Assembly (NCBI GenBank): GCA_038396585.1
Contig: CP121691.1
Location: 2,604,001-2,668,000, forward strand
DNA: 64,000 bases
DNA from: Vallitaleaceae bacterium 9-2
GTDB taxonomy: Bacteria; Bacillota; Clostridia; Lachnospirales; Vallitaleaceae
Direction: 5' to 3'
The position numbers and the translations under genes were made by a program. Below are positions 5,429-62,994 of the stretch, one piece after another. A model generated the notes under the pieces. The model made no database searches, was not told the DNA's origin, and saw only the letters and a list, made by a program, of their open reading frames with translations. Positions within the stretch are counted from its first letter, which is position 1. Each line of letters starts with the position of its first letter.

Positions 5429-7048
5429 CTAGTCCATTGGTTTTAATGCGTTTAATCGCATGTCGATATATTCACTTAGTTTGAGTTTCTCAAGTTGTTC
5501 TAAATATGTATCCCATTCGCTATCCACATCAGCTTGCCCTGCAATCCATTGTGCTGTCTGTTCTTTAATATAGTCTTCAATAGCGGTCTTGTAATCTGAC
5601 ATTTGTGCACTCTCTTCTTCCGTTGCCCAATAGGATGGAATTGCATCTTTAGCAAGAAATGGTGCATAGACTTCGTCAACATTATCTTTTTCTTTAAACG
5701 GTGGATTGACTTCGATAAATTCAAAATCTGTTGGAATATATCGTGGCAATGATTGAGGGTATAAGTTAACCCAGCTATACATTTCCTTTTGTTCCTCTGT
5801 TAAGTTTTCTTTATCAATAACATAACCGTCACCTTCTTTAAACACTGCAATGTCTAATGGACCTGCATTGGTTTGAATCGAGTTTTCTAATTCAAACATA
5901 TTATCCCACCAGCGAATAATTGCAGCCGGATTTTCTGCATTGTCGGTTATAACCACTTGATTTTTAAGCACTGCCGTCCCATAAGTGTCTCTAAACCATG
6001 TTGGCGTATCACATTGCTCACTTTTTAAAATCGGAAGCGGAACCCAGTCTGGCATTACCCCCGGATCAAACGGCATGATATCTCCACTTTCATACATCAT
6101 ACATACTCCATAGATATCTGTACTTCCCTTTGCTTTCCATTGCGCTTGGTCTTGAGTAAACATCTCAGGGTCTAGTAACCCTTCAGCATATAAACCTCTA
6201 AAGTATTTAATCATATTCTTATATTCTTCTCCATTGGCTCCAAAGGTCAACTCTCCATCGCGCATTCCAAACCCTTCTTCGTTAATTGGGAAGCCAAACC
6301 ATCCTGCATAATACCCAAGTTTTTTATTAACCGGGTCAAACGCAAAGGGAATTTCATCGGTTGCATCTCCATTGCCATTGGCATCTTGTTCTTTAAACGC
6401 TCTAAGAACTTCCGCTAACTCTTCTGTCGTTGTTGGCATGTCCATTCCAACGTTTTCTAACCATCGTGTATTGATGTATGGATTAAAGTCTACTGTTGGT
6501 GCTTTTAAAACATAAGGTATCGAATAAATATGTCCATCTGGTGCTGTCATTTTTTCACGTACCCCTTCAAGCTCTAAGATAGCTTGAATATTGGGTGCAT
6601 AGGCTTCAATATATTCTTCTAGAGGGATGAACGTTCCCATTCCCACACCAAACTTTAGGATGTCTGTCGGGCTTAAAATCCATCCTCCAATAACGTCTGC
6701 ATAATCTCCAGAATTTAAAGCCAAACTATATTTTTCCTTAGCCACTTCATAGGGAAATAGTTGTACTTCTACTTCAATCCCTGTCTGTTCTTCAAGAACC
6801 GGCATTAAATAAAACTCATCGGTTGTTTTATTTCCATCTGTAAAAATCGAAAAACTATACTCCCCTGGATCAACAATCGGTAATCCTTCTTTATAAACGA
6901 CCCCATCAATTTTCCCTTCGTCATCAACCGTTGTTACAATTTCCTGACTTTTACCATTTCCTCCCGCTTTTTCTCCACCACATCCTGCTAACATTGTTAA
7001 GCTCATAGTCCCAATGCACAGTAGGGCAATGATTTTTTTCATCTTCAT
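5429..7048 (-). CDS. Sugar ABC transporter substrate-binding lipoprotein (LipO/LplA-like)
   Basis: A 539-residue extracellular receptor. The N-terminus is a lipoprotein signal with lipobox LAGC, Cys23 being the lipidated residue, followed by a Gly/Lys-rich linker. Length and the late segments (ADVIGGWILSPTDILKFG, then a Trp- and Pro-rich C-terminal half) match the large receptors that partner with LplB/LplC permeases in Firmicutes and bind complex oligosaccharides. GGAGGAAGG precedes the start at 7048. The receptor is 73 bp behind the LplC-type permease. No ATPase gene is in the operon; such importers normally borrow a shared MsmK/UgpC-type ATPase encoded elsewhere. Substrate is inferred from the neighbouring fucosidases, GH18 and GH20 genes. 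Confidence 0.92.
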   Translation of the reverse strand: MKMKKIIALLCIGTMSLTMLAGCGGEKAGGNGKSQEIVTTVDDEGKIDGVVYKEGLPIVDPGEYSFSIFTDGNKTTDEFYLMPVLEEQTGIEVEVQLFPYEVAKEKYSLALNSGDYADVIGGWILSPTDILKFGVGMGTFIPLEEYIEAYAPNIQAILELEGVREKMTAPDGHIYSIPYVLKAPTVDFNPYINTRWLENVGMDMPTTTEELAEVLRAFKEQDANGNGDATDEIPFAFDPVNKKLGYYAGWFGFPINEEGFGMRDGELTFGANGEEYKNMIKYFRGLYAEGLLDPEMFTQDQAQWKAKGSTDIYGVCMMYESGDIMPFDPGVMPDWVPLPILKSEQCDTPTWFRDTYGTAVLKNQVVITDNAENPAAIIRWWDNMFELENSIQTNAGPLDIAVFKEGDGYVIDKENLTEEQKEMYSWVNLYPQSLPRYIPTDFEFIEVNPPFKEKDNVDEVYAPFLAKDAIPSYWATEEESAQMSDYKTAIEDYIKEQTAQWIAGQADVDSEWDTYLEQLEKLKLSEYIDMRLNALKPMD

Positions 7049-18186: not shown

Positions 18187-18440
18187 GCCCTCTGTTCCCT
18201 AAGGAACAGAGGGCATAATCTGCGGTACCACCTCTGGATTAGAAGCTTCTCACAAAGCTTCCCTTATCGAGTACAAACATACTCTTACGCTATAACGGGC
18301 GTTCCCGTCTTACCCTACTTATATTTCAGGCAGCAGCTCCAAGATGTATTCGTATCAGCACACTTATAGCCTTCCACCATCCGGCTACTCTCTGAAAAAT
18401 GTTGCTCATCTACTTCTTCTTTTCATCACTTTATCTATAT
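18187..18440 (-). ncRNA. Tyrosine T-box riboswitch
   Basis: The untranslated leader of tyrS. The conserved T-box element, read on the minus strand as AGGTGGTACCGC, is at 18221-18237; its UGGU bulge pairs with the ACCA end of uncharged tRNA and fits a tRNA with A73 such as tRNA-Tyr. A 12-bp terminator stem (18187-18198 with 18203-18214) with a 4-base loop is followed by T residues. Stem I covers about 18300-18430, and a UAC tyrosine triplet at 18346-18348 is the likely specifier. Uncharged tRNA-Tyr should favour the antiterminator and switch the operon on. Confidence 0.95.
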
Positions 18441-41530: not shown

Positions 41531-42292
41531 TTAATGATTTTCAATAATCTCTACAAGGTCTGCGTGCCAATCATGATACCAGACTTCTTGGGTATATCCG
41601 TTGACACTCAACATGCCATACGGTTCGTTGTCTTTTAAAACATGAAATGTATAATACCCATAAAATTCATGATATGCTTCATCAACACTGAACGTATTGT
41701 CATATGCGTCTAAGAAGGTTTGTGCTGCATTATAAGCTTGTTCATAGCCTACTGTATTATCTTCGATAAATCTTGTATCAAATGTACCACGCATATCCTC
41801 TCTATATGAATCCATCATTCCATAATCAAAATTGCGTCTCTGCATATGTCCGCGACCCATGTGTCCTTGTCCCATATATCCACGACTCATATATCCACTG
41901 CCCATATGCCCACCTTGACTATGCATGCCATATTTTAGATTCCACATCATATTGGGACCATATTCCGGGAAGATTTCTTTTGTGTATGGATTAACTAATA
42001 ATTCCATAGCCCCTCGATGTGTGTCTTGTTCCACAATTGAAAAATAATATTCACTATCTGAAAAAACGAAGATATCACTAATTTCCAATGCCTCTTCATA
42101 CCTACCAATATAGTCCTTCACTTCTTTGGTTAATTCATCAATCGAATAAGGCTCTGTGACATCGGCTTGATTCCATATAGTACTATACGTCGTCGGCGTT
42201 TCATCTATATTTTGACTATACATATATCCGCCAATACCCAATCCAATGAAAACTAGTCCTAAGACAATGATTGTAAGATGCATTTTCTTCAT
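41531..42292 (-). CDS. Membrane-anchored protein with His/Met/Gly-rich linker and PepSY-like ends
   Basis: A 253-residue protein with one N-terminal membrane helix (LTIIVLGLVFIGLGIGGYMY), the rest outside. Two regions (about 50-112 and 185-250) each predict a helix plus strands ending in LLVNPYTKEIFPEYGP and MLSVNGYTQEVWYHDW, recalling PepSY repeats. Between them, residues 120-150 form repeats GHMGSGYMSRGYMGQGHMGRGHM-like, rich in His, Met and Gly, a composition that can bind copper or other soft metals. It lies 5 bp after a SHOCT gene in a three-gene operon. Function is unknown; metal binding is inferred from composition only. Confidence 0.75.
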   Translation of the reverse strand: MKKMHLTIIVLGLVFIGLGIGGYMYSQNIDETPTTYSTIWNQADVTEPYSIDELTKEVKDYIGRYEEALEISDIFVFSDSEYYFSIVEQDTHRGAMELLVNPYTKEIFPEYGPNMMWNLKYGMHSQGGHMGSGYMSRGYMGQGHMGRGHMQRRNFDYGMMDSYREDMRGTFDTRFIEDNTVGYEQAYNAAQTFLDAYDNTFSVDEAYHEFYGYYTFHVLKDNEPYGMLSVNGYTQEVWYHDWHADLVEIIENH

Positions 42293-42962: not shown

Positions 42963-45461
42963 CTACTTATTTACGGCAATCAATCCATATTTTTCTTTAA
43001 TTCGCTCAAGTTTTTCAAGCATTGGCCGGGCAATTACAAACAAAAAAAACACTGTTGCTACGGCATGAATTAAATCAAAAGGAATTCCTCGAAGATAGGC
43101 AAGTACAAACATCTCCTTTGTCGGATGACTTTGAAACATCAACACAGCTGCCGGATTCATTATTCCACCATAAATAAAAAATGTACTTATCCCTCCAAAA
43201 ATGCATAGTTCAATTGTCTTTTTCCTCAATACACCTTTTTGAAACAAAATACCCGCGATGAATCCGATAATACCAAGTGCGAACATTTGCCATGGGGTCC
43301 AAGGCCCTTGACCAAAAAACATATTGGATACAAACGCAATTATGGCACCAACTAAAAAACCTGATTCTCCTCCAAAAGCTACACCAGCAATAATCACAAT
43401 AGCTACCACCGGCTTAAACTGAGGCACCATAAAAAAAGCCGCACGCCCAGCTACACCTATGGCACATAGAACTGCAATCACAATGAGTTCTCGGGCAAGG
43501 GGTTTTCTGTGTTCAAAAATCAATACAAAAGGTAACATCGTCTGTAAGATAATAAGCATACTGATAAAATAGTACTTTCGATCTCCTAAGTAATAGATGC
43601 CAATATACATCGTAAGAGGAATCGTCAGAAAAATTATAATCATGGCCAAGAGTGTTCTGGTTGACAGATAGCGTTGATGTATTGGCACTTGCCCTTCATG
43701 CTTCTTATCCTTTTTTCGGCTTTGCACATTTTGGGGATATAGAGTTTTTACTTTCTTGGGATATACATGGGAAAAATCCACACTTTCCAAAGGAGTAATA
43801 TCGCCTCCACATGCACTGATGACATCTTCTGGCGTCATTGCATCTATAATATGTTGACGTGCCATTCGATTTGCTGATGTGGTATAAAAGTTATTGCCTG
43901 TAAAAAAATTACGTGTATTATTTTCACTGACAACTTTACCATCAAAAAACAAAGCACACCGCTTCGCATACTTGGCACAAAATTCAATATCATGGCTCAC
44001 CATAATAATTGTCACGCCTTCTTGTAGCAATCCATGAAGTATACCGGCAAACACACTCTTAAAATGCGCATCTAAACCTTTTGTCGGCTCATCAAGAATC
44101 AAGATTTTGGGTTCAAGCAATAAAACCTTAGCCAATGCCAAGCGTTGCTGTTCTCCTCCGGATAAATCATAAGGATGCTTCGTTAGTAGCTTATCTAATT
44201 GACATAATTGACTTATGTATTGTACTTGTTCTTGTCGCGTTTTCTTTTCCTTATCGTGTCCCACTCCATCGACAAGATCTTCGAATACTGTTTTGTGGCT
44301 AAAAAGCGTCTGGGGGTTTTGCGGCAACATACCTATGCCATTTTCTAAAATTTGATTACGCTTATTACCTACGGCGTGTCCTGCAACGTTTACCGTTCCT
44401 CTATATGGCGTATTTTCTCCACAGATGAGCGAAAGCATTGTTGACTTTCCTGTGCCGTTTCCACCTAAAATGGCTAACAGTTCACCTTCATATATTTGCA
44501 TCGACAATCCTTTAAGAACATCCGTCGCATTTTGTTCATAACGAAACCAAACTTCCTCCAGGGTAATTATTGGATTGTGCGTTTTTTTCTTCTCTTTTTG
44601 CGAATATGTTGGCACCAGGTTAAGCGGTCGATGTTGAACGAATGCGTCCAGCCACGTTCTCCCGTCCCGAACAGTTATCGGACATTCTAACTGATTATCC
44701 ACCCTCGCATATATCTGCATTGGAATTGGCATCGCCAAAAACATACTGTGTCTTATGTTTTTTAGATATGTCCCTATCTCTTGTGGTGTGCCATCACCTA
44801 TCAAACGTCCTTCATCTAACACTAAAACTCGGTCTGCCAGTGGAAACACCTCTTCTAAGCGATGTTCTGTCATAATAACGGTTACACCTAGTTCACGATT
44901 AATCCTTCCAAGCGTTGCTAAAAATTCTGCCGCTGCAATAGGGTCCAACTGACTTGTCGGCTCATCCAAAATAAGAACTGAAGGCTGCATTGCCATAATT
45001 GATGCTAAATTTAAAAGCTGCTTTTGCCCTCCTGAAAGTTGAGCAACACTTTTATGAAACCAAGACTCAATTCCAAAAAAAGCGGCAATTTCAGCCACAC
45101 GCAAACGAATTGTCGGTGTGTCTATCCCTAAGCTTTCTAATCCAAAAGCTAATTCATGCCATACTTTATCCGTTACAATTTGGTTGTCTGGCGATTGCAT
45201 AACAAAGCCTATAGTAGCGCTTTGAACCCGCTGATCCCATTGTGACAAAGACTTGCCTTCAAATAGAATCTCTCCCTGAACGGTTCCATGTGGCGCAAGT
45301 ACGGTTTTTAATTGTCGAAGTAAGGTCGTCTTACCACACCCCGAGGGTCCACAAAGGGTCACAAACTCTCCTTTGTTAATCGAAAAAGACAGTGCATCAA
45401 GAACCGCTTTTGTTTGTTTTGGATAAAAAAACGTTACCTTTTTAAGCGTATAGCTCTCCAT
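42963..45461 (-). CDS. Fused ECF transporter: two EcfA ATPases plus S component
   Basis: An 832-residue fusion. Residues 1-235: first ATPase (GPSGCGKTT, LSGGQKQLLNLAS, ILDEPTSQLD). Residues 300-540: second ATPase (GGNGTGKST, LSGGEQQRLALAK, ILDEPTKGLD). A basic linker (about 580-600) leads to a C-terminal membrane domain (605-815) with about six helices, including AAFFMVPQFKPVVAIVIIAGVAFG and FVSNMFFGQGPWTPWQM, which resembles ECF S components placed near cobalamin genes (CbrT-like). The start at 45461 (MESYTL) follows GAGGAGAAG and overlaps ecfT by 28 bp. Normally these are three separate proteins. With EcfT it should form the complete importer. Corrinoid substrate is inferred from the riboswitch. 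Confidence 0.9.
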   Translation of the reverse strand: MESYTLKKVTFFYPKQTKAVLDALSFSINKGEFVTLCGPSGCGKTTLLRQLKTVLAPHGTVQGEILFEGKSLSQWDQRVQSATIGFVMQSPDNQIVTDKVWHELAFGLESLGIDTPTIRLRVAEIAAFFGIESWFHKSVAQLSGGQKQLLNLASIMAMQPSVLILDEPTSQLDPIAAAEFLATLGRINRELGVTVIMTEHRLEEVFPLADRVLVLDEGRLIGDGTPQEIGTYLKNIRHSMFLAMPIPMQIYARVDNQLECPITVRDGRTWLDAFVQHRPLNLVPTYSQKEKKKTHNPIITLEEVWFRYEQNATDVLKGLSMQIYEGELLAILGGNGTGKSTMLSLICGENTPYRGTVNVAGHAVGNKRNQILENGIGMLPQNPQTLFSHKTVFEDLVDGVGHDKEKKTRQEQVQYISQLCQLDKLLTKHPYDLSGGEQQRLALAKVLLLEPKILILDEPTKGLDAHFKSVFAGILHGLLQEGVTIIMVSHDIEFCAKYAKRCALFFDGKVVSENNTRNFFTGNNFYTTSANRMARQHIIDAMTPEDVISACGGDITPLESVDFSHVYPKKVKTLYPQNVQSRKKDKKHEGQVPIHQRYLSTRTLLAMIIIFLTIPLTMYIGIYYLGDRKYYFISMLIILQTMLPFVLIFEHRKPLARELIVIAVLCAIGVAGRAAFFMVPQFKPVVAIVIIAGVAFGGESGFLVGAIIAFVSNMFFGQGPWTPWQMFALGIIGFIAGILFQKGVLRKKTIELCIFGGISTFFIYGGIMNPAAVLMFQSHPTKEMFVLAYLRGIPFDLIHAVATVFFLFVIARPMLEKLERIKEKYGLIAVNK

Positions 45462-46324
45462 TTTAACTTCTCCTCTATATTTATGCCCACTGGAGCGATA
45501 CATAAACAAAAATATGTGACATACAGGCTGATAGCATGTGCTTCAACTTGTACCCCTTGTATCGTCGGAAAATACCGCCAATATGTGCCTTTAAAAACAA
45601 TGCCCATGGTCATATAGATTCCACAAACAATTAAAAAAACAAGTGCATATTGATCACGTCGGTCAAACAGATATATCGAAAATGCACTTCGACCAGGTAA
45701 CCCATAGCCTCTACTTTTCATTGAATCCGCTGTTTCAATGGCATTTTCCAATGCCCACGTCACCATAATCGAGAGAATTTTTATGCCTTGTTTTGTGCGC
45801 TGTATGATATTTCCATAAGACACATCTTTTCCCAACGCTCTTTGTCCTCGAGTAATCCACTGAAGTTGTGTTAAAAAGCGAGGGACAAAACGTAAAACCA
45901 TGGATAAGATTAAAGAAAGCGAAGGTATGATACGTCCAAATAAATATATAAACTTATCCGAAGTCATGACGACATTATAACAAGAAAACCAGACCATAAT
46001 TGTCATCAACATCACCGCTGCAGAGATTCCATACACAATAGACTCAAGCGTTAATGGATTCCCATTAGGCAAATAGGTCAAAATAGTCATCCCTTCATGG
46101 TTAAATGCAGGATTAATCAGTGCTGTAGCAACAAGTATCGGCAACATATACTTCAAACTAAAATTAAGGGTCTTTTTTCTTCGCAAAAAAAATGCATACG
46201 TCAGTGCACTAAAAAAAGAAATGCACTGTAAAACAGGATGCATAAAAAACATCGAAAAAATTAAGACTTGGGAAAAAAACAAAAAATTAATGATTGGATG
46301 ATATTTTGAAAAGGTATCTCCCAT
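45434..46324 (-). CDS. ecfT: ECF transporter T component (EcfT/CbiQ family)
   Basis: A 296-residue membrane scaffold protein with five to six helices. The coupling helices carry the small-residue/Arg motifs RGQRALG near residue 163 and ADSMKSRGYGLPGR near 207, which dock the two ATPases. CGGGAGGTC precedes the start, and its ATG overlaps the DUF4430 stop by one base (TAATG), so the genes are tightly coupled. It links the fused ATPase-S protein downstream. Confidence 0.9.
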   Translation of the reverse strand: MGDTFSKYHPIINFLFFSQVLIFSMFFMHPVLQCISFFSALTYAFFLRRKKTLNFSLKYMLPILVATALINPAFNHEGMTILTYLPNGNPLTLESIVYGISAAVMLMTIMVWFSCYNVVMTSDKFIYLFGRIIPSLSLILSMVLRFVPRFLTQLQWITRGQRALGKDVSYGNIIQRTKQGIKILSIMVTWALENAIETADSMKSRGYGLPGRSAFSIYLFDRRDQYALVFLIVCGIYMTMGIVFKGTYWRYFPTIQGVQVEAHAISLYVTYFCLCIAPVGINIEEKLKWRAIRLKR

Positions 46325-46986
46325 TATTGACCTCCCGTAGCGACATATCCGTCTACATCACGTCCCAAATCCGTGGTATAGACCCATTCAATAACATCCC
46401 CATCTTGAAGCTGATAGCGTGAAGCGCCATAATTTGGAAACCATTCATTCACCTTATACATCCAGCCAGATAGTTCTCCTACATCAAACTCATATAGATT
46501 ATTGATTCCTTGAATATATGCGCTGTTATAAATAGGTGTATTAACAAATTCCATATGAATATTATTTTTTTTCATTTCTCTTTGCAATAAATTAAAGACA
46601 CTTTCTCCCTCATAAAAAACGACTTGTGTTGCAGGAAAAATGATCCCATCTTCCGGCACCAATTCCCATTTTTCTTTATCCAATGCATGCATATTTTCTA
46701 AAATCGTCTTACAAGATACCGAAAGTGTCGCTGTGTATTGGCCATCCCCTAATTGGACGTCCTGAGGTTCTACCGGAAGTGGTTTCCCTTCCGGTACAGG
46801 ATCTGTAAGATATTCATCTTTTTGACTAATCGCATCATGCGTATCCTTGTTAGCATTAATTGCAAACCCATCATCTACGTGGGTGCCCATATTATTACCA
46901 GAGCCCTTCTCCTCCCATATAAATACACTAAGAAGAAGCACTAAGATTACAAACACCACCGCAAATGTTTTTTTATTCTTCTGCAT
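46324..46986 (-). CDS. Membrane-anchored DUF4430 (transcobalamin C-terminal-like) protein
   Basis: A 220-residue protein with one N-terminal membrane helix (FAVVFVILVLLLSVFIW), an acidic/Pro linker to about residue 85, and a DUF4430 domain (87-212): VFYEGESVFNLLQREMKK, then ELSGWMYKVNEWFPNYGASRYQLQDGDVIEWVYTTDLG. DUF4430 shares its fold with the C-terminal domain of animal transcobalamin and intrinsic factor. It sits one base from ecfT. Tethered at the outer face of the membrane, it could hand ligand to the S component; this is inferred. The start at 46986 has AAGGTGGTG at a rather long spacing. Confidence 0.85.
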   Translation of the reverse strand: MQKNKKTFAVVFVILVLLLSVFIWEEKGSGNNMGTHVDDGFAINANKDTHDAISQKDEYLTDPVPEGKPLPVEPQDVQLGDGQYTATLSVSCKTILENMHALDKEKWELVPEDGIIFPATQVVFYEGESVFNLLQREMKKNNIHMEFVNTPIYNSAYIQGINNLYEFDVGELSGWMYKVNEWFPNYGASRYQLQDGDVIEWVYTTDLGRDVDGYVATGGQ

Positions 46987-47011: not shown

Positions 47012-48670
47012 TTATAATAGTTGAGATACGTCTAAAAGGTTATATAGCATCTGTGCAACTTCATAACGCTTAATAGCTTCTCTAGGTCGAATCGTTAAAT
47101 CTTGTTGTGATAAAAGATTCGATTGATAGCAAAAGGCTAAGGATGTTCTTGCCCAGCGCGACGCCTCCATATAATCCGAAAACTGAGCCAACATATCACG
47201 CATCTGAACCTCGGAAACGTCGATGTCATTCCCTGTCAATTTTGCCGCCCGTGCAATCATAACCGCCGCTTCCTCACGCGTAATTGTTCCATTAGGATTA
47301 AATACCGTCCTTGATTGTCCATGGATAATCCCATAATTATAGGCTGCTCCTACGGATGTTGCATACCAACTTTTAGCAGGCACATCTCTAAATTGATTTG
47401 TACTTTGCTTAGGTAAACCTAGTGCTTGAACAATCATAGTTGCAAACTCGGACCGTGTCACATGCATATTCGGTTTAAACTCTGTCTGTGTTTTCCCCTG
47501 AATAATTTGGCGAGCCGCAAGGCTATCAATGGCGAGTTTTGCCCGATGCCCTTTAATATCATCAAAGGTTTTTTTCGGTAAGACAACAGGTCTTAGTTGT
47601 ACATCCGGATGCTTGTCTTTTTTTCCTGCCACCGAAGTTGATGTCAGGGATACTTTATCTCTTTGCTCAACATCCGTCATCCGATAAAGGCTTTGTTTTT
47701 TCTGCTGCGCTCTTTGTATGGCAACCAGTGCGTAAAAAGCTTGTTCTGTTGCCATTTGATTAACTCCCGTCCCATCTTCTGTATGCAAAAAGCCTTCCCC
47801 TGGTGTGTAAAATTCTAAAAGGTTATCTACAACGGTTTTTCCATTTTTCACAAACCGTTTATCTGTCACTGATACGCCTAATTCTGTCAATGCAACAGCA
47901 ACTTGAGCGGTACTTTCCACATTTTCTTTACCCCAGCTCGAGTATCCACCTTCATCATTTTGCACCTTTGATAAAAAATCTAATGCTTCGTCAATAACTT
48001 TTTTAACATCATTTCGCTTTTGGTATTTTGCCAATGCTTGTAGTGCCATCGCCGTGATATCCGGGTCTGAAACCTGTTTTTTAGTTGATGACGTTTCTAA
48101 TCCTCCAAAAAGAGAAAATCCACCATCCTCAAGCTGTCTACGCAGTATTTCATCCACATACTTATCCCGTGTCGCTTGAGCCGATGGATTATCACTGTCA
48201 CTAATTGTATAGGCACCGCTATCCAAAGCGATGAGTGCAAAAATAGGTCCATTAATCCCTTGTTGGATTGTCTTATCAAAATCACTCAGTGGATATGTCA
48301 GGTCATAGCCGCCTACATCCCTAGGATCATATCCAATTGCTGTTAACGCCAAAATCAAGCGTGAATATTCTGTGAGTTTGACATGATGTAGAACCCCTTT
48401 TTTCTCCTTAACATATGTCTCCACATTATTATAGTACGTCAAGTAGTAGTCATTTGGTACATGGTAGTCACTGCGAGCTAGTCCTAGGACAGCCCATTCT
48501 CCACCTACAAATCCAACTTGGGGATTACTCACCGTCTTATGCATGTAAATTGCAGTATCTTCAATCACTTGATCCAGCTGTTGTTCTGAAACAGATACTA
48601 CACTTATTCTAGTCACGAAACATAAAATCAATACCCACAGCCACAGGCTTTGTCTTTCTATAACCTTCAT
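47012..48670 (-). CDS. S-layer-anchored alpha/alpha-toroid protein
   Basis: A 552-residue secreted protein. Signal peptide about 1-29 (SLWLWVLILCFVTRISVVSVS). Residues 30-325 are helical repeats of the prenyltransferase/squalene-cyclase-like toroid, with turn motifs RRQLEDGGFSLFGG, KVQNDEGGYSSWGK and TPGEGFLHTEDG. This fold is also the N-terminal domain of intrinsic factor. Three SLH modules follow (about 370-552; FKPNMHVTRSEFATMIVQAL, FNPNGTITREEAAVMIARA), which bind cell-wall polymer. GAGGTG precedes the start at 48670. It lacks a DUF4430 domain itself; adjacent proteins supply it. Enzymatic cyclase function is unlikely: no DxDD-type acid motif is seen. Confidence 0.87.
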   Translation of the reverse strand: MKVIERQSLWLWVLILCFVTRISVVSVSEQQLDQVIEDTAIYMHKTVSNPQVGFVGGEWAVLGLARSDYHVPNDYYLTYYNNVETYVKEKKGVLHHVKLTEYSRLILALTAIGYDPRDVGGYDLTYPLSDFDKTIQQGINGPIFALIALDSGAYTISDSDNPSAQATRDKYVDEILRRQLEDGGFSLFGGLETSSTKKQVSDPDITAMALQALAKYQKRNDVKKVIDEALDFLSKVQNDEGGYSSWGKENVESTAQVAVALTELGVSVTDKRFVKNGKTVVDNLLEFYTPGEGFLHTEDGTGVNQMATEQAFYALVAIQRAQQKKQSLYRMTDVEQRDKVSLTSTSVAGKKDKHPDVQLRPVVLPKKTFDDIKGHRAKLAIDSLAARQIIQGKTQTEFKPNMHVTRSEFATMIVQALGLPKQSTNQFRDVPAKSWYATSVGAAYNYGIIHGQSRTVFNPNGTITREEAAVMIARAAKLTGNDIDVSEVQMRDMLAQFSDYMEASRWARTSLAFCYQSNLLSQQDLTIRPREAIKRYEVAQMLYNLLDVSQLL

Positions 48671-48702
48671 CTTTTTGCACCTCGCTACTTTCATCCTACG
48701 GT

Positions 48703-51700
48703 TTATTGCTGTTCATATTTTTCAATAAAGCGTCTCAGTATTTCAGCGACCTCTGCTCGTGTTGCTTCACCTGCCGGAGAAAGTGTACTTGATGTACGTC
48801 CCGTTATTATGCCGGATTGACTTGCCCATCGCATAGATTCAAGCGCCCACGGGCTTATCTTTGATTGGTCCATATACATAGTCAAGCTAACCTCTCCATC
48901 CATGTCATAACCTTTTAACGTTCCATATCGGTAAAGAATGACTGCAATCTGCTCACGGGTTATTTTTTCATTCGGTTTAAAAACTCCATTATCATATCCA
49001 CTTATGATTCCATTGTCTGCGGCCCATCCTACTGATGTTGTAAACCACGTCCCCTCTGGAACATCGTGGAATTTGACCGGTGAAGCATCGGGTTCTTTCT
49101 CCAACTTATGTAACACGGTAACTAACATTGCTCTTGTCATAGGTTGATTAGGGCTAAAGGTCTCTGATGAAGTACCTACAAACAAGCCTTTTTGTGTTGC
49201 TACATCAACTGCTTTATAGAACCAATCTTCTGGCTTAACATCCTTAAATCGATGAACAACTGCAGAAGCTTCCAGTTTAACCCCAATGGCATAAGAAGAT
49301 AAATAGGAGCTATCAAAACTTGCCATATTTGTCTTTGAATTATAGTCTGATTCGATACGTTTCAATTGATTGTTTTCATCTAGACTCCATACATTGACCT
49401 CTTCTTTTGTTTCACCTGCTTTTAGTGTATATGGCAAAGCAATCGTTACTTTTTTCTTGCCCAAATCACGTATAGATTCTCCTGCGCTTTCAATGACAAT
49501 ATCATAGACCACATGATGACCGATGGTTTCACGTTGTTTTTCTGTAAGCGTTAAAGCATCCGTCTCTTGTAACTGCACGACTATCGTCTCACCCTTTGCT
49601 TGTTTTGCAAGAAGTGCTAACATCGCATTGGACATGTCTAAATGGGCAATGGAAGACTCTATATTTAGGTCTAGACCTTTTTGTTTTGCCACGGATTCTA
49701 TTGATTTTTTCGGAAGTTCTATGTTAAAGCCCTTCATTTTTTTATTGGTATCTATTTTTATAACAATATCTGATAATTTTTCTTTTTCAACTGCCTTCAA
49801 AGCTTTGTCAAAGTGGCGTTTACTTATAGATACCTTCTCTGAGTCTCCATCCACTTCAATAACATAGGCTTTTTTGCTCGCTTTTAAATCCCCGCTCCAC
49901 TTACTGTTATCTTGTCCTAAGTCTTCACCTAAATCTGTCGTGTATCTCCAGCGCAATACATCGCCTTCTTTAAGGTCATATTGACTTGCACCATAGTCCG
50001 GATAACGTCCATTAACACTATACATCCAGCCACTAAGCGGTCCATGGTCAAACTCTCCATCTCCATCTATGGATTGGACATAGACACTTTCGAATTTATC
50101 GTACCATTTATAGTCATAGCGAATTTTTCGAGCATCTAACGCTCGCTTAAGCACGGACCATGCTGTATCTCCATCTTGGAGTTCAACATAGGTTGAGGAA
50201 ATAACATAACCTTTGCCTATTGTTCGCTTGTCTACCGAAAGTTTGACTTTCTTTTCAGGTTCAATAACAACATCATCATCTGCATCTCTGAGCGAATACA
50301 CGACATAGTCCGTAAAATGTTTTGTCTTGACTATTAAATCGTCTCCACTATCAAAAGCATAGGCATCTTTGCCACTGGCAAGTCCCTCTGCATCATTTGC
50401 ATATTTTGATAGTAATTCTATATTCTCTCCATTGATTGCAGCAACCAAGTGCCCTGCCTTTTTGGAAAATTGCATATGGACATAACCGTTGAATTCAATC
50501 TTATGGTTGCCTCCCATTGTAAATGCTTGGGGGATTTCATGGATTTTTTTATCCTTTGCAATGTGAGGTTCTAACACCGACAAATAGTCTGTCGGTTCTT
50601 GATATGTTATTAACTCAATCGATGCGCTATCTTGTGGCGTAACCTGTATACCTTGAGGAAATACCACCTGGGTATTTTCCTTAATCACTTCAATACGTGG
50701 CATTGCATCCATTAAAGGCAACTCCAACATAACTTTTGAAGCCATATCTTTTGCAACATTAATACGTATCGTATGTTCAGATGATGCTACCGGAACGATC
50801 TGATCTATCCCTTCAAGTAATTGAACATCTACTGTAATGGTATTTTGTTTATCTGGCGCTGGAAGCTGGATGACGTTGATTGGTCTTTTTTTAGCCTGGT
50901 TAAATTGCTCATTTGCCCCATTTAATTGGGCAAGTGCATCATTAATTTCTTGTTGCAACGCATCCGCTTTATCAGCAGTGATTTGAGCTGTAGCAAGTGC
51001 TGATGTCAATACACTGTGTTCTTCTTGGGTTACCCAGTTTTTTCCTAAGTCAACGTCTTTTCCGTCAACACTTACCGGTGTCTGTTCAAGATTGGATTTG
51101 ACTTGTGTTATTAATGTATTTAATTTAGCTTTATCTACTTGAGTGTATCCTAGGTCAATCGTGCCTAACTTATACCATGTTGATTGACCTGAGACACTAT
51201 CTGCTAATGCTACTGAAGCTTGTTTTGTTGACATGAAGACCGCACCCGGGTTATCCTTTTGCCAATCAAATGCTCCTTCTGAATTTTGATAGCTTAGTAA
51301 TGCATCTATCGGTGTTTTTCCATTGTAATTCCATGCTCCATCTGTTGAGGTTACATCTTCTCCAATGGCTATAAGTCCTTGAATTGCACAAGCGATACTA
51401 TTGGAGTTTTCCGCATCCCACATACCGCTGCCGCCAAATCCACCGCTTTCTTGTTGCATACTTTTTAAGTATTGTTTTGCTTTTACAATACTTGTATCAA
51501 CTGTTGGTCCATTTGCTTTTGACAAGGCAACCAAAGACCATCCTGTATAGTCTATCTGGCTAAATGCACCAAAACTACCATCTGGATTTTGCTGAAGAAT
51601 TAAGTGGTCAACCGCTTTTTCCTTATTGGATGCATTCCATGTTCCGACATCAACGCCTAAGATTTCACCAACATCTAAGGCAACAATAGCCCATATATGC

Positions 51701-53109
51701 TTACCTAAGCTCCCAAAACTTCCACTGTCTGGATCTTGCTGTGCAGACAATTCTAAAAAGAGATTTCGCTCCGTTTCAAAAGCCTTTGCCGGATTTTTTC
51801 CAACGCTTAATAAGCTATAGATATAGTATATATGATCATTGGCGTTGGTCTGTGAATCAAATCCGGGGTCCAATGTTTTCCAGCTGGCATCTTCCCATGG
51901 TGAAGTCGATAAGTCTTCCCCCGCTCCCCATAATCCTACAAAGGCCTCCCAAGATCCTGAAGGTGAGGTCAGTTGATTATCTTTGTAATAGTCCGTCAGC
52001 TTATTTAACGCAATTTGGGGTGTTACCGGTATATCCGTTGATTTTAATCCGTATTTTTTTGCTGCATTGAAAATATCTGTTGCCTGTGCAAGCGCTTGAA
52101 CTGCATGATCAATATCTGTCTGTGTTACATCTAAACCGTCTCTTACGGCTTTGGCATCTTTAACTGCATCAAGATATGTCTCTATATCAGATTGGCGCAC
52201 CCACTGATTTGCTGTATCTATGTCTTTTCCATCGATACTTATGGCGGCGCCTGTAATGTTAGCATGCGCATCAAAAATTGCTGTGTCTAATACCGTTGTA
52301 TCTACATCCGATGTATCTTGCGGCGATACTATTGTAATCTGATAAGTCTCAGCTAAAACATCTGAAGCACCCGACCATGAATTCATCGTTGGCCATGCAG
52401 GGTCTCCACAGATAACGGTTATCACTGTACCATTGGATACCGGAATGCTTTGTGTACGTTTATAATGTGTTCCATCTACAAACGTTTTTATTAAAAAGTT
52501 TTTGTTACTTGCTGTAGGTTCAACATCAACCGACGCAATACCTTTGGGCAATTCTAAGGTATAGCTGTTAATCTCTTGATTAAATGAGGGGCTTAATGTC
52601 CCTTCACTAAAGCGAATTGACTGAATGGTTTTATCATTATTATCCCATGAACCACCAACATCTTTTCCATAACCGTTTTTTGTATATACCCATCGAACAA
52701 TATCACCTTGCTCAACTTCGATGTCACCTGCACCTACATGTGTGAACCAGTCGTTTAGCGTTACCATCCAACCGCTTTCACTTCCTCCATCAAATGCATT
52801 GACACCGTGGATTCCAGAAATATAGTTCGATTCCATACCAACAACCTCATAGCTTGTTCCCTCAAAGGCTTTGGCTGTTGCATCGATAACGGTGGAATTT
52901 GCCGGTACCGTTACCCATTTTTGTACGAGTTGACCGTCCCATGAAGCACCTTGCCCCTGACTAAAGGTTGTATTTTCAACCTCCACAAGAACACTTACTC
53001 CAGAAGCTGCATCTACAGTCCACATTGTGTATGGACTAATCACCATAACCAGCATCATCAGCGTTAGGAAAAACGCCATATATTTTTTCAACTTCCTACA
53101 TATCATCAT
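48703..53109 (-). CDS. S-layer protein with two DUF4430 domains and alpha/alpha-toroid
   Basis: A 1468-residue secreted protein (residue numbers here count from an ATG 4 codons upstream). Signal peptide to about 39; DUF4430-1 at 42-155 (GGSESGWMVTLNDWFTHVGAG, IVRWVYTKNG); a beta-sandwich 165-265; FIVAR-like helices 280-357; helical toroid 365-655 with turns QQDPDSGSFG, LQQNPDGSFGAF, QQESGGFGG, YQNSEGAFDW; second FIVAR-like helices 664-746; beta region; DUF4430-2 at 958-1070 (GPLSGWMYSVNGRYPDYGAS); mixed region; SLH modules 1292-1335, 1349-1395, 1410-1465. The start at 53109 has GGAGG five bases upstream. First gene behind the cobalamin riboswitch. It contains both halves of the intrinsic-factor fold pair, fixed to the cell wall, and is the probable surface corrinoid binder. 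Confidence 0.9.
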   Translation of the reverse strand: MMICRKLKKYMAFFLTLMMLVMVISPYTMWTVDAASGVSVLVEVENTTFSQGQGASWDGQLVQKWVTVPANSTVIDATAKAFEGTSYEVVGMESNYISGIHGVNAFDGGSESGWMVTLNDWFTHVGAGDIEVEQGDIVRWVYTKNGYGKDVGGSWDNNDKTIQSIRFSEGTLSPSFNQEINSYTLELPKGIASVDVEPTASNKNFLIKTFVDGTHYKRTQSIPVSNGTVITVICGDPAWPTMNSWSGASDVLAETYQITIVSPQDTSDVDTTVLDTAIFDAHANITGAAISIDGKDIDTANQWVRQSDIETYLDAVKDAKAVRDGLDVTQTDIDHAVQALAQATDIFNAAKKYGLKSTDIPVTPQIALNKLTDYYKDNQLTSPSGSWEAFVGLWGAGEDLSTSPWEDASWKTLDPGFDSQTNANDHIYYIYSLLSVGKNPAKAFETERNLFLELSAQQDPDSGSFGSLGKHIWAIVALDVGEILGVDVGTWNASNKEKAVDHLILQQNPDGSFGAFSQIDYTGWSLVALSKANGPTVDTSIVKAKQYLKSMQQESGGFGGSGMWDAENSNSIACAIQGLIAIGEDVTSTDGAWNYNGKTPIDALLSYQNSEGAFDWQKDNPGAVFMSTKQASVALADSVSGQSTWYKLGTIDLGYTQVDKAKLNTLITQVKSNLEQTPVSVDGKDVDLGKNWVTQEEHSVLTSALATAQITADKADALQQEINDALAQLNGANEQFNQAKKRPINVIQLPAPDKQNTITVDVQLLEGIDQIVPVASSEHTIRINVAKDMASKVMLELPLMDAMPRIEVIKENTQVVFPQGIQVTPQDSASIELITYQEPTDYLSVLEPHIAKDKKIHEIPQAFTMGGNHKIEFNGYVHMQFSKKAGHLVAAINGENIELLSKYANDAEGLASGKDAYAFDSGDDLIVKTKHFTDYVVYSLRDADDDVVIEPEKKVKLSVDKRTIGKGYVISSTYVELQDGDTAWSVLKRALDARKIRYDYKWYDKFESVYVQSIDGDGEFDHGPLSGWMYSVNGRYPDYGASQYDLKEGDVLRWRYTTDLGEDLGQDNSKWSGDLKASKKAYVIEVDGDSEKVSISKRHFDKALKAVEKEKLSDIVIKIDTNKKMKGFNIELPKKSIESVAKQKGLDLNIESSIAHLDMSNAMLALLAKQAKGETIVVQLQETDALTLTEKQRETIGHHVVYDIVIESAGESIRDLGKKKVTIALPYTLKAGETKEEVNVWSLDENNQLKRIESDYNSKTNMASFDSSYLSSYAIGVKLEASAVVHRFKDVKPEDWFYKAVDVATQKGLFVGTSSETFSPNQPMTRAMLVTVLHKLEKEPDASPVKFHDVPEGTWFTTSVGWAADNGIISGYDNGVFKPNEKITREQIAVILYRYGTLKGYDMDGEVSLTMYMDQSKISPWALESMRWASQSGIITGRTSSTLSPAGEATRAEVAEILRRFIEKYEQQ

Positions 53110-53169
53110 AACATCCTCCATAATTTTTTATAAAACTTCAAAACCATAACTATCTTGTCTATTCATAAT

Positions 53170-53206
53170 AAAAAAACACCTTTTCTAATATGGATAGAAA
53201 AGATGT
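53170..53206 (-). terminator. Riboswitch expression-platform terminator
   Basis: A 12-bp fully paired stem (53176-53187 with 53195-53206, one G-U) and 7-base loop, followed by six T on the minus strand, 60 bases before the start of the large protein. A second hairpin (ATAACTA..TAGTTAT) lies just upstream at about 53217-53250. It fits a transcriptional off-switch when cobalamin binds. Confidence 0.88.
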
Positions 53207-53289
53207 CTCACAAATAATAACTACTTTTTCATCATAGTTATTCCTATGTCAAAAGTAATACAACGTCCTCCTTCCCATTCCCGTGAGAA

Positions 53290-53450
53290 ATATAGAGCAT
53301 CTATATGGCAGGTCTCCTGGCTTTGCTTCGTCACACAACTCTCTCCTTCCCATTATATATAACAGTGGATATAAGAGTTTGCTCTGCATTACAGTGGCGG
53401 GACCGCGTTGGCATTGCACCAAACTTCCCTCTTAGCTATAAATAGAACCA
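53290..53450 (-). ncRNA. Cobalamin riboswitch
   Basis: Minus-strand sequence shows the conserved core: AAGAGGGAAG, GGTGCAATGCC, GCGGTCCCGCCACTGTAA, and the B12 box GCCAGGAGACCTGCC at 53307-53321. The 53122-53544 gap holds no gene: it contains this aptamer, the terminator and a promoter. Binding of an adenosyl- or methyl-cobalamin should promote the terminator and repress all five downstream genes, tying them to corrinoid uptake. Confidence 0.96.
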
Positions 53451-53485: not shown

Positions 53486-53514
53486 ATCATAGTTTAGAAG
53501 TCAAAGGATGTCAA
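53486..53514 (-). promoter_or_regulatory. Promoter of the cobalamin riboswitch transcript
   Basis: TTGACA (53509-53514) and TATGAT (53486-53491) with a 17-base spacer on the minus strand. It lies between the anti-sigma gene and the aptamer, so the uptake operon is independent of the sigma-factor genes. Confidence 0.8.
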
Positions 53515-59686: not shown

Positions 59687-62600
59687 TTATTTCTTTATAT
59701 AACCGATACGCATAAGTTCTCCTCCTTGATCGCCTCCTTTTGGACCAAGCTCTATCAGATAGTCGCAGTTTTTTATCATCATAGGATTATGCTCAATAAT
59801 GATAAGCGTCGCTCCTCTTGATTTTAGTCGTTTTAAAACCGCTATGATTTTTTGAGTATCTTCATCACTTAACCCCGTTGTCGGCTCATCCAAGATATAT
59901 AGTGTTTGAGATCCGCGTTTTTTAACTAGTTCCTTTGCGAGTTTTATTCGTTGTGCTTCTCCACCTGAGAGCGTCGTTGCACTTTGTCCCAGCTTTAGAT
60001 ATCCTAAGCCAATTTGATCGAGTGTTAAAAGATACTGAAAAATCCTATCGTCATGTTCATAAATTTTCAACAACTCTTGAACCTCAACGTCAAGGATATC
60101 ACCTATGGACATACCTTTTTCTTTTATATTTAGGATGTTGTCCGCGTATCGCTTTCCATGACATTGGCTACAGGGTATATATATATCTTCCATGTAATGC
60201 ATATTCACAGCCACTTCGCCAAGCCCTTTACACTTCGGGCATTGTCCTTTTGTAGAGTTAAAACTAAAGCTTGCCTTTGTCAAACCTTGAGCTTTTGCTT
60301 GTTGCGTACCGGCATAGCGTTCACGTAGCAATTCAAAGACACCGGTATATGTACCTGGTGTGGAGCGCGGATTGCTTCCTATAGGACTTTGGTTGACATA
60401 GCATACCTGCTCATATGCTTCAAGTCCAACAACCGCCTCTACTTCACCTGACGCTTCGACGGTTTTACCCATATGTTTTAATATAGCCGGATATAATGTT
60501 TTTGCAATCAGGCTACTCTTACCTGAGCCACTAACACCGATAACTGCTGTTAGTTGTCCTATAGGAATCGTCACATCAATATTTTTCAAATTATAGGTTG
60601 CAACTTTTTTCATCTGAATAGCTGCTTCTTGCTTCGTATACAATTTAATATCTTCTATTACTTTTACCTCAGCAGACATTGTTTTAGGATGTCTATGTTC
60701 TAAAGGAACATTCGAGACAATCTCTCCACCATAAACCCCTGCTCTAGGTCCCATTACAAGATGAACATCTGCAATCTCCAAGAAGCTTTTCTTATGTTCA
60801 ACAATAAGTATTGTGTTATCTTGTCTTTTTAGCTCCAACAGTGTCTCCATTAAAAATTGATAGTCTTTTGGATGTAACCCCTTAGAAGGTTCATCCATAA
60901 TATAGGTAATATTACTAAGCCCTGAACCCAATTGACTAGCCAACTTAAGCCTTTGAGCCTCACCGGCAGAGAGGCTTGGTATGCTTCTGTCTATGGAAAG
61001 GTAACCAATACCCACATCCAATATACGCTTTAAACGCCGATTCAGTTGAACAAAAAGCTTCTTCGTTTGCTCCTGTTGGTTATGTGGTAAATGCATATAC
61101 ATATGATGGCACCATGTGTGGAGTTCATCACTACTTAACTTAATCACCTTCACATATCGATCTCCCATAATATGCACTAATCGTCCTTCCGGTTGTAACC
61201 GTTCTCCTTGGCATTCACTACATATTTGTTTCGTCATATATCGTTGCACTTGTGCATTGGTTTTTGATGAACTTGTCGAGTGCATCAAGCGCTCAATTAA
61301 AGGTATAGCTCCCTCTACAGGTCGAACAATCGTTCCGCTACGTCCTTTAGCATTTTTATAATCCAAACGAACGTTTCGACCATTCGATCCGTGAAGCATT
61401 TCTTGTTTAAATCGCTCCGGCAATTGATTATATGCAAGTTCTAAATCAACATCTAGATCCGCTGCCAATGCCAGCACTTCGCCTCGAATCCAATTAGCAT
61501 TTGGATTTTCTCTATGTTTTCTTAAGTTACCATATAGTGATGACGCCCCATCAAGCAAAGATTTTTCTGGCGCTTCAACGATTTTAGATGGATCAATCCC
61601 CATCTGCATGCCTAAACCTTTGCAAACAGGACACATATAATCAGGATGGTTCGAACTAAATAGTTGCGGTGTTCGATCAAAGAAAACCTCACCGCAGGAT
61701 GAGCAAACATTACCTGCATCAATTTCATGGTGACATATCGGACATATACGCTGTCCGATAATTGAAAAAATCAACTTGAGAATATCACCAATTTTTGTAA
61801 CACTTCCAACACTTGACCTCGGATTTGCTCCTAAAGCTTTTTGATCGATTGCAATAGCTGGCTGTAAACCAGTGATATTATCCACGTAGCGATCCGATAG
61901 GGCTACATCCCCCATCGGATTTGATAAAATAAGATCCATAAATTGTCTTTGACTTTCTGCATATAAAATATCGAATGCCAAACTGGATTTTCCACTGCCG
62001 CTGACCCCTGAAATCAGCGTAATTTTATTTTTAGGTATTTTAACGGATAGATTTTTCAAATTATGAATATGTGCATTATGAATCTGAATATTCTTGGAAT
62101 CCTCTTCATGTTCATCCAAAGGAATCTGTTCAAGATCCATGGATAGTTTCTTGAATTTTAAAACCTTTGTTTGCATTGGTCTTGCATCAACCTCTTTAGG
62201 CTGTGCAAAGGTTTTTTTCTTTGTCCAATGCGAAACCCAGCTAGGTACACCGGCACTCTTAATACAATCCATTGAAGGTTGATAAAACATCACTTGTAAT
62301 ATTTTACTTCCTATAAAGCCATCAAATCCTATAATCTCAATGAAGCCATCATCATGCCAAACATTATTCACACGAACAAGCGTCGACCCTATCGGATTTG
62401 GGCGGACTGGTGAACGTGTAGCAAATACGCCTGTACGGGGAGCATGGTTATACGGTGGCATGCATGTCCTGATTTTTCGAAAATTATCTCCATCAAAGCG
62501 ATCAAACCACCATAAAACACGTAAGCAGTCTCCTTGTTGAATGTGGTGGATATTTGTATCCGTCTTATTTAATTGAATCCCCATACGCTTGCCATAACGC

Positions 62601-62950
62601 ATGTATTCACCAATGGAGTCCCCTTGGTAATTTATACAAAATCGTTGGACAGGTTCTTTGGCTTCCTCAATAACTTCCTCAATTGAAAAATACGGCTTAA
62701 TATCAACTAATTCTCCTTTAAACTCATGATTATCCATTGTAACTTTAAAAAGAATCTCAGCTCTATCTAGAGAAATATGAATAATTTCAACACTATAGAC
62801 TTCAAGTCGGTTATTTGAACGCATGAATAATATACAGTGAGAAAAAAGATCTAGTTTAGTCAATGCTTTGCTATACCCATCTTCCAACTTAAGAATTCCT
62901 TCTTGATGTTTACTTTTTCGTTTTACACTTCCTATTTTTAACCATTTCAT
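59687..62950 (-). CDS. TrmO-like domains fused to UvrA2-like ATPase
   Basis: A 1087-residue fusion. Residues 2-95 look like a degenerate TrmO (TsaA) domain (WLKIGSVKRK, TKLDLFSHCILF, ELVDIKPYF). Residues about 135-225 hold a TrmO core with the motif RTGVFATRSPVRPNPIG (174-188), characteristic of SAM-dependent tRNA methyltransferases. From residue 287 a UvrA-type protein follows: two Walker A motifs GVSGSGKSSL, signatures LSAGEAQRLKLAS and LSGGEAQRIKLAK, and zinc Cys pairs CPIC, CSSC, CPVC, CSEC, CPKC, CSQC. The UvrB-binding insert is missing between the first and second zinc modules, as in UvrA2-type proteins linked to drug tolerance. Start 62950 is nine bases after GGAGG. Joint function unknown. 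Confidence 0.88.
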   Translation of the reverse strand: MKWLKIGSVKRKSKHQEGILKLEDGYSKALTKLDLFSHCILFMRSNNRLEVYSVEIIHISLDRAEILFKVTMDNHEFKGELVDIKPYFSIEEVIEEAKEPVQRFCINYQGDSIGEYMRYGKRMGIQLNKTDTNIHHIQQGDCLRVLWWFDRFDGDNFRKIRTCMPPYNHAPRTGVFATRSPVRPNPIGSTLVRVNNVWHDDGFIEIIGFDGFIGSKILQVMFYQPSMDCIKSAGVPSWVSHWTKKKTFAQPKEVDARPMQTKVLKFKKLSMDLEQIPLDEHEEDSKNIQIHNAHIHNLKNLSVKIPKNKITLISGVSGSGKSSLAFDILYAESQRQFMDLILSNPMGDVALSDRYVDNITGLQPAIAIDQKALGANPRSSVGSVTKIGDILKLIFSIIGQRICPICHHEIDAGNVCSSCGEVFFDRTPQLFSSNHPDYMCPVCKGLGMQMGIDPSKIVEAPEKSLLDGASSLYGNLRKHRENPNANWIRGEVLALAADLDVDLELAYNQLPERFKQEMLHGSNGRNVRLDYKNAKGRSGTIVRPVEGAIPLIERLMHSTSSSKTNAQVQRYMTKQICSECQGERLQPEGRLVHIMGDRYVKVIKLSSDELHTWCHHMYMHLPHNQQEQTKKLFVQLNRRLKRILDVGIGYLSIDRSIPSLSAGEAQRLKLASQLGSGLSNITYIMDEPSKGLHPKDYQFLMETLLELKRQDNTILIVEHKKSFLEIADVHLVMGPRAGVYGGEIVSNVPLEHRHPKTMSAEVKVIEDIKLYTKQEAAIQMKKVATYNLKNIDVTIPIGQLTAVIGVSGSGKSSLIAKTLYPAILKHMGKTVEASGEVEAVVGLEAYEQVCYVNQSPIGSNPRSTPGTYTGVFELLRERYAGTQQAKAQGLTKASFSFNSTKGQCPKCKGLGEVAVNMHYMEDIYIPCSQCHGKRYADNILNIKEKGMSIGDILDVEVQELLKIYEHDDRIFQYLLTLDQIGLGYLKLGQSATTLSGGEAQRIKLAKELVKKRGSQTLYILDEPTTGLSDEDTQKIIAVLKRLKSRGATLIIIEHNPMMIKNCDYLIELGPKGGDQGGELMRIGYIKK

Positions 62951-62994
62951 AAAAAAAGCCCTCCTTATCGACATCCATTATATCAATAAGAAGG
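62951..62994 (-). terminator. Terminator/attenuator hairpin abutting the UvrA-fusion start
   Basis: Arms 62960-62971 and 62983-62994 give a 12-bp stem (two G-U) with 11-base loop, then GC and seven T that end exactly at the ATG at 62950. The stem contains the GGAGG ribosome site. It could be the terminator of the upstream MATE gene and also mask translation of the fusion gene. Confidence 0.8.

Follow-up and report, generated by a model that had tools for sequence, protein, structure and literature searches.

The locus described here raises the question of what a very large cell-wall protein, in which an alpha/alpha toroid is flanked by two DUF4430 domains, could be doing at the head of a transporter operon. 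It is found in Vallitaleaceae bacterium 9-2 (contig CP121691.1), of which a window of 64,000 nt, forward-strand positions 2,604,001-2,668,000, was analysed; window coordinates are used below, and all features of the operon and its leader lie on the minus strand. In and around the gene for this protein (1468 aa, 48703..53109), we find domains and a fold similar to those of vertebrate cobalamin carriers, a cobalamin riboswitch, an operon encoding a CbrT-like S component, and a genome in which cbiL and cbiH have no match. As intrinsic-factor-type domains, a B12 riboswitch and an operon with a B12 importer are brought together, the wall protein very probably captures B12-like molecules, and we consider it likely that it serves, anchored in the wall, as the capture unit of an uptake system for corrinoids (the B12 family) under riboswitch control.

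The open reading frame (ORF) is open over 48703..53121 and has 1472 codons counted from its first ATG (53121), from which residues are numbered here. Translation more plausibly begins at the Met at 53109 (1468 aa), whose ATG is closely preceded by GGAGG; this GGAGG overlaps the first ATG. The original prediction, of a toroid flanked by two DUF4430 domains in a single wall protein, is borne out by Pfam, by profile searches and by an AlphaFold2 model. A signal peptide region (hydrophobic N-terminal stretch AFFLTLMMLVMVISPY..VDA, 53008..53109) is followed by DUF4430-1 (residues 42-159, 52645..52998), by a toroid of a divergent type (residues 362-658, 51148..52038) and by DUF4430-2 (residues 955-1072, 49906..50259), both DUF4430 domains being transcobalamin-beta-like. 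Pfam (PF14478) recognises two DUF4430 stretches with a whole-protein E-value (E) of 1e-31, and our own profile retrieves them with E 2e-28 and 7e-46, respectively. Their predicted local distance difference test score (pLDDT) is mostly 73-94 in DUF4430-1, one loop excepted, and about 95 in DUF4430-2, which is modelled as strand-strand-helix-hairpin-strands. The toroid is defined by profile matches to cyclases of the PDB (E 5e-28) and by the model, where its pLDDT is mostly 90-98; its Pfam match to Prenyltrans / squalene-cyclase families (E 4e-4, or 7e-6 for the toroid alone) is below the cut-offs. Three S-layer-homology (SLH) repeats, the wall anchor (residues 1288-1470, 48712..49260, PF00395 E 6e-36), are separated from DUF4430-2 by a pre-SLH region.

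The domain order first proposed (DUF4430, FIVAR, toroid, FIVAR, DUF4430, three SLH) thus stands, but two further domains had been overlooked. One is a cadherin-like beta domain (residues 161-265, 52327..52641; PF12733 over residues 175-237, E 1.7e-4, below the Pfam cut-off), which directly follows DUF4430 in other loci too. The other is a beta-rich domain of about 200 residues between the second FIVAR and DUF4430-2 (residues 756-960, 50242..50856); in Paenibacillus, Lutispora and other relatives, too, toroid and DUF4430 have this domain between them. The FIVAR-like helical spacer 1 (residues 271-366, 52024..52311) has a PF07554 match below the cut-off (E 0.014) and a low to moderate pLDDT; spacer 2 (residues 660-755, 50857..51144) is retrieved with E 1e-49 by a FIVAR profile built from both spacers. 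The SIDGKDID / SVDGKDVD segments said to be shared by the two spacers are indeed present in both, at residues ~295-302 and ~684-691.

The comparison with transcobalamin (TC), intrinsic factor (IF) and haptocorrin (HC) is best carried by a relative from a Gracilibacteraceae metagenome-assembled genome (MAG), L126, a natural fusion of the two smaller proteins of the operon (toroid and DUF4430) into 539 aa with a lipobox-like start, a toroid (43-353) and a DUF4430 domain (415-532). In a Foldseek search of 350,542 PDB chains, its AlphaFold2 model (pLDDT 87.5, with a flexible linker) has TC, IF and HC at all of ranks 1-15, with E from 9e-11 to 3e-8. The toroid-then-beta-domain order and the overall fold of the vertebrate carriers are thereby found in L126 and also, ranking after cyclases, in the wall-protein model, whose alignments with TC, IF and HC have 720-748 columns, enough to span from the toroid into DUF4430-2. 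The global root-mean-square deviation (rmsd) to the carriers is ~22-28 Å, the domains lying apart in the apo models; its value of ~22 Å for L126 indicates that this is so in L126 as well. At the level of the single domain, one DUF4430 of the wall-protein model (the copy is not specified) superposes on the TC beta domain of 5no0 with a template-modelling score (TM) of 0.77, an rmsd of 2.3 Å and 22% identity. Searching PDB sequences gives less: a profile of 70 DUF4430 sequences has transcobalamin-2 as its best, weak match (E 0.05), the toroid profile matches cyclases and prenyltransferases and not IF or TC, and when the toroid, DUF4430-2 or the operon's small DUF4430 protein is used as a single-sequence query against the PDB, no IF or TC match is returned. 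The analogy with intrinsic factor drawn in the original prediction is sustained by the fold, the domain order, the B12 riboswitch and the B12 transporter of the energy-coupling factor (ECF) type encoded in the operon.

The wall-protein gene is the first of an operon behind a full-length cobalamin riboswitch aptamer (RF00174, 53290..53467; Rfam 110.1 bits, E 1.1e-26), with a perfect B12 box (53307-53322), 168 nt ahead of the ORF and 180 nt ahead of the likely start codon (53109). Between aptamer and ORF, an intrinsic-terminator-like hairpin of 15 bp is followed by a T run (53173..53209), and the minimum free energy z-score of the leader is -3.67. Since the aptamer and then this hairpin with its T run precede the ORF, the layout seen is that of a transcription-attenuating riboswitch, from which we infer a response to B12. 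About 20 nt upstream of the riboswitch, a promoter-like site TTGACA-17-TATGAT (53486..53514) agrees with 11 of the 12 consensus positions and is the joint best of 48 sites; as 43 such sites are expected by chance, it is notable for its position alone.

The genes of the operon are spaced by at most 25 bp or overlap. Behind the wall-protein gene come a second toroid protein of 560 aa with a toroid of the canonical type and SLH repeats (47012..48694), a small membrane-anchored DUF4430 protein of 220 aa (46324..46986, PF14478 E 3.6e-18), an EcfT-like transmembrane protein of 296 aa (45434..46324) and an EcfA-EcfA'-S fusion of 848 aa (42963..45509, TIGR04520 E 1e-107). The EcfT-like protein, whose position and homology are conserved across loci, has no Pfam match of its own, and one homolog matches CbiQ weakly (E 4e-4). 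The S part is CbrT-like: 6fnp, which we take to be the ECF-CbrT structure, is its sole PDB match below 0.4 (E 8e-9). The three DUF4430 copies of this operon are the only ones in the genome.

The host is probably a corrinoid scavenger, since its complete genome has no match to cbiL and cbiH, two key enzymes of B12 biosynthesis. CobB is present and, together with BtuFCD-like genes, sits behind another of the genome's cobalamin riboswitches, which are three in total (3 per 3.8 Mb). The best-scoring one (G000:C1:1229441-1229627; L179:941-1127) closely precedes the genes for a glycyl-radical enzyme (pyruvate-formate-lyase / diol-dehydratase family) and for its activase; this glycyl-radical enzyme is possibly a B12-independent stand-in for a B12-dependent one.

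The association of these elements is not particular to the host. A set of toroid, small DUF4430 protein, EcfT and EcfAA'(S) recurs (30 same-order loci), and toroid, DUF4430 and ECF genes are found together in dozens of Firmicutes genomes. At least 558 loci were recovered when public genomes were scanned with an alignment of the small DUF4430 proteins, and they range from Paenibacillus to Flavonifractor, Sporobacter, Lutispora, Tissierella and Cellulosilyticum; 80 of these loci were kept for neighbourhood counts. EcfT adjoins the small DUF4430 gene in 62 of these 80, and a toroid gene adjoins it or is fused to it in 72; several of the loci lacking either are short contigs, and the scan is biased towards ECF neighbours because its seed came from ECF neighbours. 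A search from the wall-protein toroid alone matched 49 of 399 genomes of the phylum, with DUF4430 in all 20 fetched loci and EcfT in 18 (the other two are short contigs). A cobalamin riboswitch is present in 19 of 22 further public-genome loci and in 12 of 31 order-level loci, for an expectation of ~1.6% per 20-kb locus as estimated from the density in the host genome. In Butyricicoccus (L157), two tandem cobalamin riboswitches (5904-6096 and 6225-6434, plus strand, ~130 nt apart) lie between a DUF4430-SLH gene and a toroid-ECF operon.

The double-capped architecture is itself a recurring family rather than an oddity. One-chain DUF4430-toroid-DUF4430(-SLH) proteins were found in L065, L075, L077, L078, L080, L086, L087, L089, L097, L131, L152, L156, L159, L164, L167, L215 and L216; the recurrence of this chain in many genomes shows the domain order to be more than chance. 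DUF4430 stands on both sides of the toroid in Paenibacillus, Lutispora, Tissierella and other families, and Paenibacillus plantarum (L098) has a stand-alone DUF4430-DUF4430-toroid-DUF4430-SLH gene with its own riboswitch. A different arrangement is seen in a Vallitaleaceae MAG (L137:661-5970, plus strand; same protein in L063), where a 1769-aa protein with five or six tandem toroids, without DUF4430 or SLH, is encoded in the same kind of operon.

How the corrinoid could be captured and passed on may be proposed as follows. At low cellular B12, the leader terminator would not form and the operon would be expressed; the large wall protein would be exported, and its SLH repeats would keep it in the wall. 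The transcobalamin-beta-like DUF4430 domains would touch the corrinoid first, as the TC beta domain does alone, and the toroid would then close on it, as in transcobalamin and intrinsic factor. The likeliest partner of the toroid would be DUF4430-2, via a flexible spacer, and DUF4430-1 with its cadherin-like partner might form a second capture arm, acting by itself or, in trans, together with the 560-aa toroid protein. The second toroid and the membrane-anchored DUF4430 protein would next take over the corrinoid and deliver it to the ECF transporter, at its CbrT-like S component.

In the mechanism first suggested, the single toroid could be capped by either DUF4430 domain or by both at once; the FIVAR segments would act as hinges, and one chain could hold one or two ligands. 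This is in line with the repeated occurrence of DUF4430 on both sides of toroids, and with the conservation of the domain: PF14478 is found in all of 70 aligned copies, six positions of DUF4430-2 (S1030, G1031, W1032, N1037, G1053 and D1054) are each at least 90% conserved among these 70 sequences, and the same S-G-W / N / G-D core is kept in DUF4430-1, so that the proposed check for conserved surfaces gives a positive answer for both copies. The two domains are, however, only 28-30% identical. In the tree, DUF4430-2 lies among copies that follow a toroid, with up to 69% identity to those of Paenibacillus, and DUF4430-1 goes with a DUF4430-plus-cadherin-like group, mostly from chains without toroid, a placement that is unsure because its own branch is long (1.36); the small membrane-anchored DUF4430 proteins are one clade (support 100). 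By their low identity and separate groups, the two domains appear as old, non-equivalent paralogs rather than as interchangeable recent copies, against the idea that either could be an equivalent cap. The hinges fare no better: no FIVAR copy was found outside the wall protein among 30 order-level loci, and FIVAR is absent from other double-capped proteins, L215 and L216 included, which makes these segments look like lineage-specific spacers rather than conserved hinges. FIVAR-like matches also occur in unrelated large proteins of relatives. Two caps sharing one toroid thus seem unlikely to us. That no contact between DUF4430 and toroid is modelled with confidence is no refutation, since the alpha and beta domains of transcobalamin associate only upon cobalamin addition (PMC5599065); the beta domain is reported to be the first to bind cobalamin, and the alpha domain to close afterwards (PMC11107200). 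In L215 (7807-11643, minus strand), L216 (7708-11028, plus strand) and L217 (364-3705, minus strand), the toroid is a circular permutation of that in the wall protein, a segment matching wall-protein residues ~594-653 preceding the one that matches ~341-617. The point at which the cap is tethered is therefore not conserved, which would agree with flexible tethering, and permutation itself would agree with a closed ring having adjacent ends.

Several observations weigh against corrinoid capture by the wall protein. Its model (residues 38-1078) has a predicted template-modelling score (pTM) of 0.45 and no confident DUF4430-toroid contact or domain placement, and is matched first by terpene cyclases (2e-8), with TC, IF and HC next (2e-6 to 4e-4). 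PF01122 (Cobalamin_bind) has no match at E <= 10 in the host genome, and none in L126; of the 97 positions that are near-invariant in canonical toroids, the wall-protein toroid has kept just 36. Ligand binding, the order of hand-off and the pairing of cap and toroid are inferred. The toroid could be a terpene-cyclase- or prenyltransferase-like enzyme, as its sequence profiles match squalene-hopene cyclases and drimenyl diphosphate synthase leads the fold matches of the model. The class II terpene cyclase motif DxDD is, however, reduced, to D-x-D-I-T in canonical toroid copies and to Q-I-D-Y-T at the aligned site of the wall protein, the location is extracellular, and L126 matches TC, IF and HC ahead of any cyclase; an enzyme is most improbable, and a terpene cyclase was rejected for its reduced aspartate motif. 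A plain adhesin was rejected as well, given the riboswitch and the ECF context. More deserving of attention is a possible, if less probable, alternative in which the operon takes up corrinoids but the wall-protein toroid has been re-purposed for another ligand, such as a cobamide whose lower ligand differs, a degraded corrinoid, a carrier protein or a polysaccharide. Two toroids of Paenibacillus paeoniae, 54-57% identical to this toroid, join it in a supported clade; it lacks e.g. GGEW and QGxNGP and has its own aromatic-rich conserved set, next to a 560-aa protein that retains the canonical toroid; yet it stays in a B12-riboswitch operon beside DUF4430 in every lineage examined (L138, L215, L216). 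If cobalt or a B12 fragment (alpha-ribazole, for example) were imported in place of intact corrinoids, this would be compatible with the control of cobalt transporters by cobalamin riboswitches (PMC3766115), but the extracellular domains are transcobalamin-like and the S component resembles CbrT, a transporter of cobalamin and cobinamide (PMC5997447), so that such import is very unlikely. Corrinoid capture therefore remains our preferred reading. A bolder version of it, advanced as a tentative proposal with a modest chance of being right, is a two-site trap, in which a DUF4430-cadherin arm would accompany a DUF4430-toroid clamp and the divergent toroid would select another class of cobamide than the canonical toroid of the next gene, the whole acting as a tiered, selective extracellular relay.

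Corrinoid capture by such proteins is not without precedent. Burroughs et al. (2007; PMC1796856) recognised this DUF as a transcobalamin-like SLBB (soluble-ligand-binding beta-grasp) domain and described bacterial SLBB-toroid fusions in both orders, fusions to FIVAR, and operons with CbiO/CbiQ and a second SLBB protein; they suggested that such proteins scavenge B12 and that the animal carriers originated in bacteria. The wall protein is of this kind: it combines an SLBB beta-grasp domain with an alpha/alpha toroid and FIVAR, has the surface features of that family (signal-peptide-like N-terminus, three SLH repeats and a toroid), and its gene stands beside those for a second DUF4430 protein and for CbiO/CbiQ-type components. 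In the fusions as described in the text of that paper, the toroid is N- or C-terminal to SLBB, whereas that of the wall protein is flanked on both sides, and its operon is under riboswitch control, the main text of the paper mentioning no riboswitches. B12 scavenging was thus already predicted in 2007, and the wall protein is a two-cap variant with an unusual toroid; what is new is the control by a riboswitch, the CbrT-like S component, the recurrence of the double-capped chain, the division of DUF4430 into three lineages, a toroid that is divergent and in some cases permuted, and, for L126, the fusion itself together with its fold match over the whole chain. No experimental test of these proteins was found in the open literature searched (subscription papers and preprints being outside its scope).

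Relative to vertebrate IF, TC and HC, a toroid followed by a DUF4430-type beta domain is shared, as is the fold over the whole chain of L126, but the wall protein is wall-anchored, has an extra N-terminal DUF4430, a divergent toroid without PF01122 match and ~300 residues between toroid and cap, and is accompanied by a second toroid and a third DUF4430 on separate chains. Like ECF-CbrT of Lactobacillus delbrueckii (PMC5997447), the operon has a CbrT-like S component, EcfT and EcfA/A'; unlike it, this is a dedicated module, with two ATPases and S in one chain and with extracellular binding proteins, partners that go unmentioned in the sections of the CbrT literature searched. BtuG of Bacteroides, a surface protein catching B12 and handing it to a transporter (PMC6143338), would be a functional analogue, although it is an outer-membrane lipoprotein of Bacteroidetes working with BtuB in a different cell envelope.

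If corrinoid capture holds, Gram-positive bacteria would catch extracellular B12 with the two-domain clamp of animals, here coupled to control by a B12 riboswitch and to import by a B12 ECF transporter, and gut and soil Firmicutes would own a counterpart to capture by BtuG in Bacteroides. The 2007 proposal of a bacterial origin for intrinsic factor and transcobalamin would become testable with small constructs, e.g. the 539-aa L126, and the divergence of the toroid hints at a possible selectivity among corrinoids.

Other features of the window were noted. Directly after the ECF operon, a 253-aa protein (41531-42292, minus strand) without Pfam match has a Met/His/Gly-rich segment (HMGSGYMSRGYMGQGHMGRGHM). 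A T-box leader is present at 18206-18435 (minus strand, E 2e-24), and a 1095-aa protein encoded at 59687-62974 (minus strand) fuses a TrmO-like tRNA methyltransferase N-terminal domain to a UvrA-type ABC/DNA-binding part.

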